Source: Tretioscincus oriximinensis (lineage: Eukaryota > Chordata > Lepidosauria > Squamata > Gymnophthalmidae). From it: a DNA stretch of 64,000 bases. Each line of letters begins with the position of its first letter. Position 1 is the first letter of the stretch. The stretch lies in contig JAJVDF010000136.1 in assembly GCA_022410635.1 (NCBI GenBank), forward strand, positions 1,044,134 through 1,108,133, given 5' to 3'. The notes below the pieces were generated by a model. It was not told where the DNA came from, did no database searches, and was given only the letters and a program-made list of their open reading frames with translations. The translations under genes were made by a program, and so were the position numbers. This document shows, piece by piece, positions 8,031-48,683 of this stretch.

Positions 8031-8954
8031 CTTGTTCAACCTTTCTAGTTTCCTGACGTAAAGTCTAGCAAATCAAGAATCTTGCAGCCTGTGACATTTT
8101 ATCGATACCTTTTTCCAAGATTACTGTGGCACTTTCAGGAGTAATTATCGGACTGGAAGTTTACTTTCTGCAGGAGAGAGAGAGAGTCAGCAAAAAAATA
8201 CAATAAGAGCCCAAATAACTCCCTCTTGTCTACACAATTTATTTTTGTTTCCAGCTCTTTTAAATTAAGTAGTGTCCATTTATCGCCAAGAAATGGAACT
8301 TTTCTTCCTTATCAAAGCTACCTTCTAGAGACGGACAACAACAAAATGTCCCCCCAGCTTCTCATGATTCCTGTTTACCTGGACCAGAAAGGCTGAAATT
8401 GACATGCTACCATGATCAGAAAGGTGGTTTTATTAGTGAAAGGAGGCAGTAAATCTTCGAAGATCCTTGTTATTGAGAACATTGGAACATAAGAGAAACA
8501 CTGCTCCTACCTAAGAACATAAGAACATAAGAAGAGCCATAAAACGTAAAAAAATTAAAATATATGAATTCTATAGAGATACTGAACCAATATCAGTAAA
8601 TACAGAATATATATTAGAGATAATTGGTCAGAATAACTGGATATTTGGAAATGCGATAATCCAGTTTCTATCCAACCATCAAACCAAAGGATTGATGTCT
8701 GTAGTNCCTAATAGGTGGTGTGACCTTATAAAGCATGTACTTTATAATAAAAAAGGAGTAATAGGTAAAATCTATAAATATATTACAAGTTTAAAATATC
8801 GTATGCTGGATTATATAGTTACCAAATGGNCAAACTCCTGTAATATAACGCCTGAGATTGTAACTAAGGCTTTAAAAGAAACTTATGAATGCCAATATGT
8901 TAAAGTTATAGAACTGAGAAAAAAACTATTGACATTCTGGTATCGCACTCCAGN

Positions 8955-10896
8955 CTGCCAAAGTTCTGAGCCCTGTCACTGGTCTCTGGAGGCTGCCAAA
9001 GTTCTGAGCCCTGTCACTGGTCTCTGGAGGCTACCAAAGTTCCAAGCCCTGTCACTGGTCAATATATCTTGGAATGTTGTACTCTCCCACACATCTTTTA
9101 TTACTTATGATGAGTGTAATGAATATGAAAACAATAAAACTGTTTTGAAAAAGAGAGTTAGTTGTTGCAGCCTGATTTCATAAGGGATTTTGTTCCAGAC
9201 CCTTGGATCAGCTCCTTTTCCAGTTTTACTGTACAACATATTTTATTAAAGGAAACACTTGAGAGCTTGTGAGTGTCCAGGTGCCACTGAGTGAGACAGA
9301 AGGTTGAACTAGATGGAATGTAAGCTCTTCTTATATTCATATGTTCATGGTGAACCAGAATGTGAATGTGGCCACATCAATCAGCATTCAAACATTCGTG
9401 CCAGGAAGTACATTTGATATATTAAATTATCTACAAAAATCTCTTTCTAAAGTCTGTACATAGTTTTGGACATCCCAGTGCTATGTTTACTGCTTCTAAG
9501 GTCACCTTTAAACGGTCCTTTAGGACCACCGTTATGCAGTGCAGAAACATATAATCAATTTTCAGGTTGGCAGGATTATAGATTCTTGACAGCTTTAAGA
9601 TATTTTTGATAGAGGCGAGCTAGTTACAGAAAATAAAGTGGTAGAAATTGGCTGTAAAAGTTTCAAGGAAGGTAATTTTTTGGACACAATTTATAACGAA
9701 AAGGAACTTTTAAGGCAATCAACTCTGCAGTTATCCCTCGTATAGCATGGTTTTGTTTTAACGTTGTTGGCAAAAAAAAAAGAGAGAGTAATATATATAT
9801 AATGATGACACACGCTTGGAAAATCTCATTGCCAGAACCCGACAGAATGACAAGACTAGGAATATATTATAAAGATACGAACGAGGCACATTAAAATCAG
9901 TAAACTGGTAAACCAGATTAACAGGAAATTTCGGAATAAGCAAATGCTGTGTGAATACAGTCTTAGTTGCTACTTGTTCAACCTTTCTAGTTTCCTGACG
10001 TAAAGTCTAGCAAATCAAGAATCTTGCAGCCTGTGACATTTTATCGATACCTTTTTCCAAGATTACTGTGGCACTTTCAGGAGTAATTATCGGACTGGAA
10101 GTTTACTTTCTGCAGGAGAGAGAGAGAGTCAGCAAAAAAATACAATAAGAGCCCAAATAACTCCCTCTTGTCTACACAATTTATTTTTGTTTCCAGCTCT
10201 TTTAAATTAAGTAGTGTCCATTTATCGCCAAGAAATGGAACTTTTCTTCCTTATCAAAGCTACCTTCTAGAGACGGACAACAACAAAATGTCCCCCCAGC
10301 TTCTCATGATTCCTGTTTACCTGGACCAGAAAGGCTGAAATTGACATGCTACCATGATCAGAAAGGTGGTTTTATTAGTGAAAGGAGGCAGTAAATCTTC
10401 GAAGATCCTTGTTATTGAGAACATTGGAACATAAGAGAAACACTGCTCCTACCTAAGAACATAAGAACATAAGAAGAGCCATAAAACGTAAAAAAATTAA
10501 AATATATGAATTCTATAGAGATACTGAACCAATATCAGTAAATACAGAATATATATTAGAGATAATTGGTCAGAATAACTGGATATTTGGAAATGCGATA
10601 ATCCAGTTTCTATCCAACCATCAAACCAAAGGATTGATGTCTGTAGTCCCTAATAGGTGGTGTGACCTTATAAAGCATGTACTTTATAATAAAAAAGGAG
10701 TAATAGGTAAAATCTATAAATATATTACAAGTTTAAAATATCGTATGCTGGATTATATAGTTACCAAATGGNCAAACTCCTGTAATATAACGCCTGAGAT
10801 TGTAACTAAGGCTTTAAAAGAAACTTATGAATGCCAATATGTTAAAGTTATAGAACTGAGAAAAAAACTATTGACATTCTGGTATCGCACTCCAGN
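8955..10896 (+). repeat. 1942-bp tandem duplication, copy 2
   Basis: Second copy of 7013-8954. It runs on into the complete 3' part of the L1, so it is probably the authentic locus sequence. The join at 8954/8955 jumps from mid-L1 codon sequence into the middle of a 38-bp minisatellite unit at a single N. Confidence 0.95.
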
Positions 10897-11499
10897 ACAA
10901 TTATCTCATTTTATAGTAAACATAGAACNTTNCTGTTGGCATTGTGGAGGACCCCGTGGAGAATATTTACACATGTGGTGGACGTGCGAAAAAGTTAAAA
11001 TCTTTTGGCAAGTAATTCAAGTAATTATTAATACAATTTTGGGAGTTAACATCAGTTGGAATATTGAAATATGGCTATTTGGTCAATCACCCGAAGCTAT
11101 AAGATCTAGCTCAGACAAATTCCTATGCCAACGCTTAATATCCGCCGCTTTACTAACAAGAGCCTTTGACTGGAAAGATGAACAAAAATGGACAATTAGA
11201 AGATGGCAAAGCTATGTGATAGAAATTATGAAATACGATTTGGTTAAAGAGAAAAGACTATATCATAATGGCAATATAACCTTTTTGGTGCAAAGGGAAC
11301 GTTGGAACAAATTGATTAGATATGTGGAAGCAAGAGGCGAAATGTCAACATGGCAAAATGTATGTAATAATATTTTTCCACTTATGCAGAAGCTAATTTA
11401 ATCACGCTCCTGATTTTATATATGGATATAATTAACTGTCTGTTACGTTTTTATATGTATTTTTTCACTGTTTTGTGTTATTTCAAATTAAAAAAAAAA
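10484..11499 (+). mobile_element. 5'-truncated L1 LINE with 13-bp target-site duplication
   Basis: The insertion is flanked by aagaagagccata at 10471-10483 and again at 11500-11512, and ends in an A run at 11490-11501. This is classic endonuclease-primed L1 integration. It carries the C-terminal third of ORF2, open from before the ATG at 10634 to 11401. The target was a minus-strand CR1 3' end, which the L1 splits. Three Ns fall in the coding part (10896, 10929, 10932). The first 412 bp also appear at 8542-8953 through the tandem duplication. Confidence 0.93.
10634..11401 (+). pseudogene. L1 ORF2p C-terminal fragment
   Basis: A 255-codon frame encodes the part of L1 ORF2 after the reverse transcriptase. 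Its zinc-knuckle-like CWHCGGPRGEYLHMWWTCEK corresponds to the conserved C-terminal Cys/His region of vertebrate L1 ORF2. It ends NIFPLMQKLI just before the stop, and the frame stays open upstream of the ATG to about 10502. The endonuclease and RT domains are absent, so it cannot retrotranspose. Few disruptions other than N bases suggest a fairly young insertion. Confidence 0.88.
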
Positions 11500-11947: not shown

Positions 11948-12152
11948 AGTCCAGGAAAGGGGCTGGTAGCACTTAGAGACTAACAGAAGAAAAGTAGGTG
12001 GTATAAGGTTCTATAGACACGTCTACATCTTCAGTTGCAAGTAGACGTGTCTACAAAAGCTTATGCCACCTACTTTTCTTCAGTTAGTCTCTAAGTGCTA
12101 CTAGCCCCTTTGCTGGGCATTCTACTGGACTAACATGGCTATTTCTCTGAAA
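11948..12152. mobile_element. Penelope-like element 3' ends as an inverted pair (hairpin)
   Basis: Arms 11966-12026 and 12041-12101 (61 bp each) are near-perfect reverse complements around a 14-bp centre. The arm gtagcacttagagactaac matches the terminus of the full Penelope-like element at 35715-35730. The right side continues into its outermost tip (ggctatttctctgaaa). This is the same head-to-head layout as the large copy, reduced to the termini. Confidence 0.75.
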
Positions 12153-17435: not shown

Positions 17436-18408
17436 TACGTTCACATGCTGGTGGCTCCAATAGGGGAAGTAGGAGGGATTGACTAGGCCTGGTGGTGCCA
17501 CCTAATTATGCAAAGAAAAAGGCCTCATTGGTTGGGGCCTAGTAACAAAGTATATATAAAAGAGAAAGCTCTGGTCAATAAGTTGCTGATGTATTTTCAA
17601 GTTATTGAGGACTTCAGTTCCAGCTTCACACAAGTATTGCGATGGTGGATTCCAACAAGCCAATTTCTTTGTCCAGCCCATCTCTCCTTTCCCTTCAAAA
17701 CCTGAGGTCAACCAGGGTTCACTGTGGCAGTCCTGACAGGGCCTGACAGATGCTTATTAATTGTGGTTCTCAGTGTTATCTTAATGATGCTATGTAATTA
17801 ATTATTCAGACGCAAATTGCTAATGCATGCACACGGCTCAATATAACATCTTCTATGAAAGCAGAATGCATCACAGCATTAAAATTTGTTTTCGAACTTT
17901 ATCTGCAAATGGAAAGCAAGAGGCTTTATTGAACTCATAGATTACATTTATGGATGCTGGATTTGGCACAATTTTCTAGTACAAAGCCAAGCGCAATACA
18001 TTAGGTGAAGATTTTTTCTGAAAATATCTCCAGCATAATGACTCTGTCAAGGCACAGATGCGGATTTACGGTAGAGGAAAACAACTGTTTTCTTTCAGGA
18101 ATAGCTTTTCAACATTTTCAGATGAAGAAAAGTAAAAACGGCCCATTAGTTTATTTTTTCTTTTAAAACTGGATCAGTGAAAACAGCTATCGGTCATCTG
18201 CTTTAAGTTTAAAATCATTGAAGAACAAGTGTATATAGTAGTAAAAAGACAAAACTTTTATGATTGGGCATGTAATGAATCTTTCTTTTCTATTGCTGTG
18301 TGAAACATGTAGTTCCAAGGAGTTTGCCTGAATAGGAATAGCAGAGATGTATTATTTAGTTATGTAATATTTTGAAAATACTCAAACACTTTGCAAGAGT
18401 GTTTGCAG
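17436..18408. other. AT-rich intronic DNA, no recognised repeat
   Basis: One of the longer stretches free of recognisable transposons. 17750-17960 contains several homeodomain-type cores (ttaattaattatt). It is a reasonable place to look for conserved noncoding sequence, but conservation cannot be seen here. Confidence 0.3.
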
Positions 18409-18409
18409 A

Positions 18410-18790
18410 ACCTTAGAGATGACAAGATAAAAGGAGGCAGAATGAGATTTTATAGACAAGACTGCAACTTCTTCAGATGGATGGATAGATAGATATTCTT
18501 GCAATAGCATCTTGTAGCACTTTAAAGATTAACATTAAAAAGGTAGGCAGTATGAGCTTTTGTAGAGAGCTCTACTTCTTCAGATGCTAGCTCTGAGAAA
18601 GATGACAGCCATCTGCACCTATCTTGAAGAGGCTGAGGGATGTCAAACCCACTTGGATTATTTTGGGGCTTTCGTGGTGGTAGCAAGGGGATACTGTAGC
18701 GTCCTAGAGATTATTGAAAGTTGGTAGCCCAAGCTTTTTTTCACAAGTCTATTTTTTCAGATGCCAGGAGACACTTGAATATTGGAAGAA
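18410..18790. mobile_element. Penelope-type terminal fragments
   Basis: Two or three eroded copies of the Penelope terminus: tagcactttaaagattaac with agcttttgtagagagctcta and cttcttcagatgctag (18515-18590), a similar piece at 18440-18480, and ggtagcccaagctttttttc with tttcagatgcc (18720-18765). Confidence 0.55.
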
Positions 18791-25424: not shown

Positions 25425-25570
25425 CATTAGGTAGCACATTACACCACCTACCTTATTAGTCTTTAAGGTGGTACCAGACCCCCTTGCTAGAATCTTTCCC
25501 TCTCTCATCTATGCACTGGAAGAAGTAGACTTGCCTATGAAACCTCATGCTGCTGCTATTGCTATTCTCC
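25425..25570 (+). mobile_element. Penelope-type terminal fragments
   Basis: ttagtctttaaggtggtacc, ggaagaagtagacttgccta and aaacctcatgctgctgct are the eroded Penelope terminus in two partial orientations. Confidence 0.5.
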
Positions 25571-25750
25571 AAGAACCCCTTGTTAGATATTTTGGACCCA
25601 GGCCAACATAATAGCTTCTTTGATAACTACTGGAAAAAAAGAGGAACGATACATCACCAAATACTCCCAGTACACTTAATGATGCAAAAATCTAGCATAC
25701 CCTTTTAGTTTCATATCTTTAACTTGCTACCCCACATATACTTTTCAGTA
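25571..25750. other. Unassigned intronic DNA
   Basis: No features seen. Confidence 0.2.
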
Positions 25751-35601: not shown

Positions 35602-36004
35602 CAGCAGCAGCAAAAGACTATTCAACCTTTGAAAAAGAATAATACAAACATGATTTTCTCTTTCAGAGAAATAGCCGTGTTAGTCTAGCAGAAAGTCCAG
35701 CAAAGGAGCTAGCAGCACTTTGAGACTAACTTGAGAAAAATGGTTGGCATAAGCTTTCGTAGACAGGTCTACTTCTTCAGATGCTGAGGGACTAATGTCA
35801 GGGTCAGGTATTTATAGGGAAATGTGTATGGGAGAAGACAAAGCATATGCAANTGTAGGGAGGTGTTGAATTGCAGGTAAATAGCAGGAACTAATCTCCT
35901 TAAAAAACAGGTAAATAGCAGGAACTGATCCTATTATGTAAAAAGGTGCCTGGGGCAACAAGGTGCAATGTCTGGTAGAGAATCAATCAAGTACTTAACA
36001 GGTG

Positions 36005-37057
36005 TCATAAAAATGTATAGTTGGCCAGGAAACCATTGTCTCTGTTAAGTCCTTTGCTGATGGCCTGGAACTTGTGAATGTATTCGAGTTCTGCTGCTTC
36101 TCTTTCAAATCTTCCTTTGTAGTTTCTTTGTTCAAGAACTGCAGTCCTGAGGTCTGAGAGAGAATGTCCTGGAAGGTTAAAGTGTTCAGCAACTGGTTTC
36201 TGTGTGTTTCCATTTCGAATATCTGATTTGTGTCCATTTATTCTCTGGCGAAGGGATTGTCCTGTTTGCCCAATGTAGAGTGTAGAGGGGCATTGTTGGC
36301 AGAAGATGGAATACACCACATTAGAAGATGAGCATGTAAAAGTCCCTCTAATGTTGTGGGTGGTGTTATCAGGTCCCGTGATGACATTGCCAGGGTGGAT
36401 GTGTGCACAGAGTTGACATCTGGGTTTGTGGCAGGGTCTAGTTCCCATTTCTCCCTCTGTGTCCTGTGTTCTTTGTGTGAGGAGTTGTTTGAGGTTGGGT
36501 GGTTGTTTGTAAGCCAGCAAAGGTTTGCCACCAAGTGCTCTTGAGAGAGCTGTGTTTTTATCCAAAATAGGTTGAAGTTCATTTATTATGTGTTTGAGGG
36601 GCCCCAATTGTGAGCTGTATGTGACCACTAATGGGGTTCTGTTGTTTTCTGTCCTCAATCTGTCCTGTAATAGGTTGATTCTGGGTACCATTCTGGCTCT
36701 GTTGATTTGTTTTTTTACTTCATGTGGTGGGTACTGTAACCTGAGGAATGCTTGCTGTAGTTCCAGGAGTTTGGTGTCTCTGTCTTCTGGATCCGAGCAG
36801 ATGCGATTATATCTGAGAGCTTGGCTGTAGACAATAGATTTGGTTGTGTGTTCGGGATGGAAACTAGAGGCATGTAAATAGGTGTATCGATCAGTTGGTT
36901 TGCAATACAGGGTCGTACTCAGATTTCCATTGTGCAATTTTATGGTGGTGTCTAGAAAGTGGACTTGCTCTCTAGATTGTTCCAAACTGAGGTTAATAGT
37001 AGGGTGGAAGCTATTGAAATTTTGGTGGATTGAGGACAGAAAACAACAGAACCCCAT
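36005..37057 (-). CDS. Penelope-like element protein, C-terminal part with GIY-YIG endonuclease
   Basis: A 350-codon open frame, 5'-truncated. About the first nine residues are read through from the inverted right arm, so the ATG is not authentic. Residues 33-65 hold the conserved post-RT block (FLDTT, KPTDRYTYLH) and 77-89 YSQALRYNRICSD. A Cys cluster CHKPRCQLC lies at 209-217. The GIY-YIG domain spans roughly 247-335 with VVYSI, LYIGQTGQSLRQR, the following NGH and a downstream Glu-rich helix (REAAELEYIHKFQ). In Penelope-like elements this endonuclease nicks DNA to prime reverse transcription. The catalytic RT palm is missing, so the copy is not autonomous. The frame is intact to its stop, which suggests a young insertion. 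Confidence 0.92.
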   Translation of the reverse strand: MGFCCFLSSIHQNFNSFHPTINLSLEQSREQVHFLDTTIKLHNGNLSTTLYCKPTDRYTYLHASSFHPEHTTKSIVYSQALRYNRICSDPEDRDTKLLELQQAFLRLQYPPHEVKKQINRARMVPRINLLQDRLRTENNRTPLVVTYSSQLGPLKHIINELQPILDKNTALSRALGGKPLLAYKQPPNLKQLLTQRTQDTEGEMGTRPCHKPRCQLCAHIHPGNVITGPDNTTHNIRGTFTCSSSNVVYSIFCQQCPSTLYIGQTGQSLRQRINGHKSDIRNGNTQKPVAEHFNLPGHSLSDLRTAVLEQRNYKGRFEREAAELEYIHKFQAISKGLNRDNGFLANYTFL

Positions 37058-37683
37058 TAGTGGTCACATACAGCTCACAATTGGGGCCCCTCAAACACAT
37101 AATAAATGAACTTCAACCTATTTTGGATAAAAACACAGCTCTCTCAAGAGCACTTGGTGGCAAACCTTTGCTGGCTTACAAACAACCACCCAACCTCAAA
37201 CAACTCCTCACACAAAGAACACAGGACACAGAGGGAGAAATGGGAACTAGACCCTGCCACAAACCCAGATGTCAACTCTGTGCACACATCCACCCTGGCA
37301 ATGTCATCACGGGACCTGATAACACCACCCACAACATTAGAGGGACTTTTACATGCTCATCTTCTAATGTGGTGTATTCCATCTTCTGCCAACAATGCCC
37401 CTCTACACTCTACATTGGGCAAACAGGACAATCCCTTCGCCAGAGAATAAATGGACACAAATCAGATATTCGAAATGGAAACACACAGAAACCAGTTGCT
37501 GAACACTTTAACCTTCCAGGACATTCTCTCTCAGACCTCAGGACTGCAGTTCTTGAACAAAGAAACTACAAAGGAAGATTTGAAAGAGAAGCAGCAGAAC
37601 TCGAATACATTCACAAGTTCCAGGCCATCAGCAAAGGACTTAACAGAGACAATGGTTTCCTGGCCAACTATACATTTTTATGA
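37030..37683 (+). CDS. Penelope-like element protein, second inverted copy
   Basis: A 217-codon open frame on the opposite strand, identical in reading to residues 134-350 of the minus-strand copy apart from the join. It starts in the linker (RTENNRTPLVV) and keeps the Cys cluster and the whole GIY-YIG domain. The first codons are at the palindrome junction, where the shared gattgaggacag suggests a microhomology join. It has no promoter or RT domain of its own and is probably not expressed as a functional protein. Confidence 0.9.
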   Translation: MRTENNRTPLVVTYSSQLGPLKHIINELQPILDKNTALSRALGGKPLLAYKQPPNLKQLLTQRTQDTEGEMGTRPCHKPRCQLCAHIHPGNVITGPDNTTHNIRGTFTCSSSNVVYSIFCQQCPSTLYIGQTGQSLRQRINGHKSDIRNGNTQKPVAEHFNLPGHSLSDLRTAVLEQRNYKGRFEREAAELEYIHKFQAISKGLNRDNGFLANYTFL

Positions 37684-37985
37684 CACCTGTTAAGTACTTG
37701 ATTGATTCTCTACCAGACATTGCACCTTGTTGCCCCAGGCACCTTTTTACATAATAGGATCAGTTCCTGCTATTTACCTGTTTTTTAAGGAGATTAGTTC
37801 CTGCTATCTACCTGCAATTCAACACCTCCCTACAGTTGCATATGCTTTGTCTTCTCCCATACACATTTCCCTATAAATACCTGACCCTGACATTAGTCCC
37901 TCAGCATCTGAAGAAGTAGACCTGTCTACGAAAGCTTATGCCAACCATTTTTCTCAAGTTAGTCTCAAAGTGCATGATTTTCTCT

Positions 37986-39904: not shown

Positions 39905-40092
39905 TTGGTTGTAGTAAGGGGGCTTGTAGCACTTTCACAAGAGGAAGGTAGACGGCATGAACCTTTATAGATAAGTCAACTTCTTCGCGTTCTAGGGAAC
40001 AAAATGCTAGATGTGCCCTAAACATCTCAATAAGTACACTTGTCTATGAAAGCTCATGCCACCTACTTTCCTGAGTTAGCCTTTAAAGCTAT
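39905..40092. mobile_element. Penelope-type termini as an eroded inverted pair
   Basis: Left half cttgtagcactttcacaaga, ggcatgaacctttatagata; right half acacttgtctatgaaagctc, tgccacctactttcctgagt, tagcctttaaagctat. It is a third example of the head-to-head terminal layout, older than those at 11948 and 35662. Confidence 0.6.
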
Positions 40093-46131: not shown

Positions 46132-47420
46132 AACATAAGAACATAAGAAGAGCCATACTGGATCAGGCCACAGCCCATCGAGTCCAGCATTCTGTGTCAC
46201 ACAAAGGCCCACCAGATGCACCTGGGCAGTCCGAACAGAGGAAAGCAAAATATGCTGCTCCTGTTCGTGACTCCCTGCAAATGGTATTTCAAAAGTCCTG
46301 CCTGTTGCTCCATCCCGGAGGCTACATCCAGACAACTATCTTAGTATCCATTTATACCCTTAGTGTCCATAAACCTGTCTAGTCCTGTCTTGAAACTATC
46401 CAAGCTGTTAGCTACCACTACCTCTTCAGGAAGTAAATTCCACAGGCCGATGACCCTCTGGGTGAAAAAATACTTCCCTTTGTCTGTTCTCACTTTTCTA
46501 CCCAACAGTTTTAAGGAGTGCCCTCTGGTCCTTGTGTTGTGTGATAGAGAAAACATTTTTTCTCTATTCACCCTGTCGATCCCATGCATGATTTTGTACA
46601 CTTCAATCAGATCACCCCTCAAACGTCTCCTTTCAAGGCTGAAGAGGCCCAGACGTTGCAGCCTTGCTTCGTAAGGGAGGTGCAGCAGACCCTTGATCAT
46701 TTTTGTTGCCCTTTTCTGCACCTTCTCCAGTTCCAAAATATCCCTCTTGAGATGTGGTGACCAGAATTGAACACAGTATTCCAAATGTGGCCTCACCACA
46801 GATTTATAAAGAGGCAAAACAACATTTGCTGACTTATTTTCGATTCCTTTCCTAATTATCCCCAACATGGAATTTGCCTTTTTTGCAGCTGCTGCACACT
46901 GGGTTGACATTTTCATTGAATTGTCCACTAACACCCCAAGATCCTTTTCTTGCTCGGTCACAGAAAGCTTGGTTCCCATCAGGTGGTAGGAGTATTTTGG
47001 GTTCTTTGCCCCAATATGCATGACCTTGCACTTGCTTAAGTTGAAGAGCATTTGCCACTTTGATGCCCACTCACCCAATTTCAATAAATCACTCTGGAGT
47101 GCCTTACAATCATTTTCAGTTTTCACTACCCTGAACAGTTTAGTGTCGTCAGCAAACTTGGCTACTTCACTATTTACCTCGGCATCCAGATCATTTATAA
47201 ATATATTGAAAAGCAAGGGTCCCAGTACAGATCCCTGGGGTACCCCACTTCTTACCTCTTTCCACTCAGAGAACTGTCCATTTAATACTACCCTCTGTTT
47301 TCTATCTTTTAGCCAGTTTCCAATCCAGGACAAAGTCTGTCCTCTTATACCATGAGTATGGAGTTTTTTTAGAAGCCTTTGATGAGGGACTTTATCAAAC
47401 GCCTTCTGAAAATCTAGATA
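46131..47420 (-). mobile_element. CR1 LINE, most complete copy in the window
   Basis: Runs from the octamer-type tail (46131-46150) through the 3' UTR to a 330-codon ORF (46341-47333) and a further 85 bp of ORF2 upstream (KAFDKVPHQRLLK-like sequence near 47395-47345 in broken frame). It is 5'-truncated into an N-containing join with an (ATA)n run at 47421-47440. Near-identical to 21585-22785 and 51345-51895. Confidence 0.95.
46341..47333 (-). pseudogene. CR1 ORF2 reverse transcriptase, C-terminal part
   Basis: 330 codons without a stop. It starts inside the RT (MSWIGNWLKDRKQRVVLNGQ); the Met is internal to the real ORF2, not its start. GVPQGSVLGPLLF is at about residues 30-42 and the catalytic FADD at 60-63. 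The thumb and C-terminal region follow (VVRPHLEYCVQFW, RRRLRGDLIEVYKIMHG) to the end FMDTKGINGY. The apurinic endonuclease and the N-terminal RT motifs are missing, so this copy cannot move. The unbroken frame indicates recent activity of the subfamily. It replicates by target-primed reverse transcription in the nucleus. Confidence 0.92.
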
Positions 47421-47437
47421 NANAATATNAACNNNAN

Positions 47438-48683
<1,246 letters not shown>

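Follow-up and report, generated by a model that had tools for sequence, protein, structure and literature searches.

How did two shortened copies of the same Penelope-like element come to lie head to head within one insert? We addressed this question at 35662–37972 of the window, the term used here for the whole stretch of 64,000 nt that was analysed. The main insert is a young element of the Penelope family, made up of two mirror-image shortened copies within one target duplication. The integration mode of Penelope-like elements is unsettled, with antisense self-priming proposed for rotifers on one side and both-strand extension described for Anolis on the other; for such models, a good test object is a young insert whose ends are clean, whose duplication is single and exact, and whose tail is present on one side only.

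Structure and coding content of the insert

The features of the insert, in coordinates of the window, are as follows.

35649–35661, no strand: target site duplication, left copy, 13 bp, CATGATTTTCTCT (exact match to 37973–37985)
35662–37027, minus strand: left Penelope-like copy, about 1,366 nt, 5′-truncated at 37027, with its 3′ end complete at 35662 (ORF, relatives, arm boundaries)
35662–35693, minus strand: 3′ "tail", 32 nt, at the left end only, the right arm of the main insert being without it (the tail-less arm of the pair 11948–12151 begins exactly 32 nt inside)
35715–36660, minus strand: left inverted arm, 946 nt, one difference in 945 readable bases from the right arm
36005–37063, minus strand: open frame of the left copy, with the end of the reverse-transcriptase part and the GIY-YIG endonuclease; beyond 37027 it is the right copy read backwards
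36661–37027, minus strand: middle, 367 bp, 5′ portion of the left copy, without counterpart in the right copy (aligns with the coding sequence of relatives)
37018–37683, plus strand: open frame of the right copy with a GIY-YIG domain (ORF list, Pfam)
37027–37028, no strand: head-to-head junction, overlap probably 0–2 bp, without a spanning palindrome (Ile/Phe difference, hairpin scan)
37028–37972, plus strand: right copy, about 945 nt, 5′-truncated and missing the last 53 nt of the 3′ end (arm comparison)
37912–37930, plus strand: hammerhead-like core, CTGAAGA ... stem II ... GAAA, supported by its motif only (with a mirror image in the left arm; stem II pairing)
37973–37985, no strand: target site duplication, right copy, 13 bp (exact match; random-placement test)

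The two copies form an inverted repeat with arms at 35715–36660 and 37028–37973, 946 nt each and 367 nt apart, in which the base at 37973 can be assigned either to the right arm or to the target duplication. Position 35853 of the left arm is an N, hence 945 of the 946 positions are comparable, and a single mismatch was found among them (35880 A versus 37808 G). The initial annotation was thus right about the near-identity of the arms but not about the exact sizes, which it had put at about 944 bp with 370 bp between. Such near-identity could stem from a single template, from two RNAs with a common source, or from gene conversion afterwards. The truncated 5′ ends of the left and right copies face each other and the element 3′ ends point outward at both borders; the right copy ends exactly at the target duplication, 53 nt before the full 3′ end.

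Pfam analysis found the GIY-YIG domain (PF01541) in the ORF of each arm, with 28.1 and 29.1 bits against a cut-off of 22.6, and so confirmed that the same GIY-YIG ORF is present on both strands. The minus-strand frame of the left copy spans its arm, the entire middle and the junction. Its protein product matched 152 proteins at E ≤ 0.001, the best among the matches listed being 66% identical over 99% of the query; among these matches, named turtle proteins stood near the top and lizard lower, followed by frogs, shark and others. Five relatives were chosen for alignment (P0001, P0002, P0004, P0006 and P0010), and the left-copy protein was 61–66% identical to them. The remaining part of the frame aligns with relatives that carry PF00078 there, the core domain of the reverse transcriptase lying upstream of the truncation. 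This level of identity, together with the GIY-YIG domain, bears out the earlier reading of a Penelope-like element; its head-to-head arrangement is likewise upheld. The relatives of the element suggest a reptile host, and the turtle and lizard proteins among the matches listed agree with the initial annotation on this point. A scan of viral_contigs for relatives of the element found none.

The sequence between the arms had been described as unique. It is unique within the insert but not of non-element origin: the minus-strand ORF at 36005–37063 and the alignment to relatives identify the middle as element coding sequence, and a foreign spacer was ruled out. The sequence at the head-to-head junction is TTTTGGTGGATTGAGG. 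The codon across it reads Ile in the left-copy frame of the window and Phe in all five aligned relatives, so that the left copy proper appears to stop at that codon; judged from this alignment, the true overlap of the two copies is probably 0–2 bp. A shared gattgaggacag had been taken as a hint of microhomology at the junction. This idea was rejected, since gattgaggacag is merely the innermost 12 bases of the arm, with Phe in five of five relatives and a real overlap of probably 0–2 bp. No palindrome spanning the junction was found; the longest perfect hairpin stem in 36991–37070 measures 5 bp and sits at 36995–37015, to one side.

Near the 3′ end, stem II of the hammerhead-like core pairs in 58 of 70 cells, compared with 17–39 of 70 for slid versions, a count that covers 14 mutually related copies with letters there, both arms of the main insert included. 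Of the 14, only 4 keep GAAA intact and 5 keep CTGAAGA, and core bases are altered in most old copies. The hammerhead family was not matched in the Rfam search, whose two matches below the gathering score belong to snoRNA families and were taken as chance. In this insert, the end of the tail lies 93 nt past the hammerhead GAAA.

Target duplication and other copies in the window

The window contains just two exact copies of CATGATTTTCTCT, one flush against either end of the insert, and none of its reverse complement. A short target site duplication is expected of endonuclease-bearing Penelope-like elements, and the one found here is exact over 13 bp. Twelve placements were tested for duplications, of which only the main insert, with a score of 13, beat every random placement, the chance maximum being 11 in the same search over 300 random placements. 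The exact match at both ends, above 300 of 300 random placements, upholds the proposal of one integration event bracketed by a 13-bp duplication; and since this one duplication abuts both outer ends, the further claim that the composite was not built by two insertions stands as well. A single insertion event is well supported for the head-to-head composite.

A 3′-end profile trained on seven copies in the window was used to search the window and gave 15 matches, grouped into nine clusters. Three clusters are head-to-head pairs (the main insert, 11948–12151 and 39913–40087), two are same-direction groups (18393–18774 with three matches and 25440–25592 with two) and four are single. The 3′ stops, whose positions are partly self-defined because several training copies were cut where BLAST stopped, fell at position 200 (the tail end) in two matches, at 162–172 in nine and at 143–158 in four. 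Thus an optional tail of about 30–40 nt is present at the 3′ end, reached by two of the 15 copies. The right end of the main insert corresponds to model position 147, and that of the pair 39913–40087 to 143. Eight of the 15 matches start at model positions 76–81, just ahead of the hammerhead-like core, although one of the eight alignments, from 12026, overlaps its partner arm; the reverse transcriptase may tend to stop here, at the ribozyme fold.

The pair 11948–12151 is older, with 10 differences in 81 aligned positions between its arms. Its left arm is without the 32-nt tail and its right arm has it, and the tail-less arm extends further 5′ than the tailed one; this 32-nt difference can be read directly from the sequence and does not come from the profile. 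A T-rich target duplication is possible at this pair (score 9, reached by 1.3% of random placements, with 12 placements tested). The third head-to-head pair, 39913–40087, is still older, with arms 10 bp apart, and no target duplication was found for it; it is one of the remaining eight of the 12 placements, which scored 4–6. A score of 8, reached by 5% of random placements, was obtained at 1375–1468 and at 18491–18589, and at the latter it stems from a repeat inside neighbouring element copies. The former is a single Penelope piece of about 94 bp whose start lies immediately ahead of the hammerhead-like core; 12 of 14 positions agree in its possible 14-bp duplication.

Other repeats were observed elsewhere in the window. 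Plus-strand open frames at 8515–9183 and 10457–11401, about 1.9 kb apart, start with the same long protein sequence (EHKNIRRAIKRKKIKIYEF...) and represent either a segment duplicated in direct orientation or a repeat that is present twice. A LINE reverse-transcriptase frame at 46341–47567 runs into a long run of isoleucine codons on its upstream side; the frame 46344–47420 matched 7,959 proteins at E ≤ 0.001, those listed including turtles, birds, fish and frogs, and the best identity among them was 74%, in turtles (over 68–81% of the query).

Routes to a head-to-head insert

Since each border is an element 3′ end and a single duplication encloses the whole, priming from both target ends is the simplest history of the insert. 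We consider that a single integration, driven by two-ended target-primed reverse transcription of an endonuclease-bearing Penelope-like retroelement, has somewhat better than an even chance of being the correct account. The enzyme would cut both target strands 13 nt apart, giving two 3′ overhangs, and from each of them a separate cDNA would be primed with element RNA as template. The top strand would start at the outer (tail) site and copy about 1,366 nt, and the bottom strand would start 53 nt further in and copy about 945 nt. Neither cDNA would reach the RNA 5′ end; their ends would be joined with an overlap of about 0–2 bp, and fill-in of the overhangs would generate the 13-bp duplication. 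We infer the two template molecules (or units), the joining step and the order of these steps.

Two-ended priming is favoured by the biochemistry of the Anolis protein in PMC11167929, from which the name and role of the tail were also taken: the protein cleaves and extends both strands, and the optional tail lies between its two start sites. The RNA printed there has a start site at ORF position 111–118, 86–93 nt past the hammerhead GAAA, and the 93 nt found for the tail end in the present insert also favours two-ended priming. Some observations count against it. The right ends at model positions 147 and 143 are off the usual 200 or 162–172, so that the inner start on the right side is not a recurrent site; arms as similar as these would also be expected from one template or from gene conversion at a later time; and the pair 39913–40087 shows no duplication.

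A single cDNA primed at the left might instead fold back 367 nt inside and copy itself towards the tail, its hairpin end being joined to the right target end. This snap-back is unlikely in our estimate, yet it accounts for the main insert nearly as well as two-ended priming does: the arm that extends further 5′ is also the one with the longer 3′ end, a match that snap-back demands, and hardly any difference separates the arms. The turn, however, needs a few complementary bases, and about 0–2 bp seem available. Nor does snap-back account for the pair 11948–12151, in which the further-5′ arm is without the tail that its partner has, and for this reason two-ended priming is favoured over it; this pair is one old case with a weak duplication (score 9), and not proof. 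Self-priming on an antisense template, with the inverted copy made before or during integration, was proposed for rotifer Penelope elements with the same head-to-head arrangement (PMC3846280). There it was deduced from palindromes at inverted junctions; here none spans the junction, the longest stem in 36991–37070 being 5 bp, which favours two-ended priming and leaves antisense self-priming improbable.

Slightly more improbable still is the movement of a ready-made head-to-head unit from another locus. Partial tandem Penelope copies can be active (PMC3846280), and a source copy with the same junction would be compatible with all data here, but the junctions of the other two head-to-head pairs in the window are different. 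A second insertion following the first, or an inverted duplication that arose later from one copy, might be suggested by the clustering of Penelope copies in the window; we consider this very improbable, given one exact duplication at both outer ends, where a second event is not expected to stop exactly. We give the least credence of all to an error of assembly, for instance through a read that was chimeric or folded back: the window holds 68 N positions, one of them within the left arm, but the sequences on either side of the insert do not mirror each other, the two arms stop at different points of the element, and for the right arm this point falls exactly at the duplication.

Comparison with known systems

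Twin priming of L1 also involves two primed ends and leaves an inverted segment inside one target duplication, and in these respects the present insert resembles it. In L1, twin priming inverts the neighbouring upstream part of one RNA and does not repeat the same part. Here, unlike in L1, the inverted part covers the same region a second time, over about 945 bp, and L1-type twin priming of a single RNA was ruled out by this overlap of the two copies.

Head-to-head Penelope copies inside one target duplication are already known as a kind (PMC3846280). Penelope elements of the rotifer Adineta vaga are flanked by inverted pLTRs, as in Pen2a_Av, and that paper names head-to-head as the inverted arrangement most often observed. 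The rotifer elements and the present insert share the head-to-head orientation, a shorter inverted partner at the 5′ side, an optional tail (about 30 nt in the rotifer) on one inverted end and one target duplication. They differ in the size of the duplication (9 bp in Pen2a_Av versus 13 bp here) and in the inverted partner, which in A. vaga is mostly a pLTR of about 200 bp whereas here it extends for 945 bp into the coding region; and both copies are 5′-truncated here, unlike in the A. vaga elements. Three inverted Penelope pairs within introns are mentioned for Drosophila virilis fosmids in PMC1431729, and passages of PMC6431247 and PMC12910113 contributed nothing further on the head-to-head arrangement. 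A search of titles and abstract openings found no title on such a reptile insert, or on head-to-head copies tied to two-ended priming; subscription journals were mostly outside this search, which is weak evidence of absence. We regard the main insert as ordinary for the Penelope family and the mechanistic lead that it offers as modest.

A close counterpart studied biochemically is PAc, a Poseidon-type Penelope-like element of Anolis carolinensis (PMC11167929). Both are GIY-YIG elements, and their tail ends lie at the same distance from GAAA (86–93 nt and 93 nt). According to the paper, the purified protein cleaves and extends both target strands, reverse transcription starts at two internal RNA sites with the stretch between them forming the optional genomic tail, and a dimer is predicted by AlphaFold2. 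The paper describes tandem repeats, and its main text does not contain the word head-to-head. It is possible, at a little short of an even chance, that head-to-head copies are the direct footprint of symmetrical two-ended priming, in which either half of an enzyme dimer extends one strand, using an RNA of its own, and a tail is present or absent on each side according to the start site chosen there. If so, the inverted arrangement seen so often would be what the enzyme normally makes, rather than a side effect of self-priming or repair. Likened to the present insert through its described biochemistry and the printed RNA, PAc would explain this insert by its cutting and extension of both strands.
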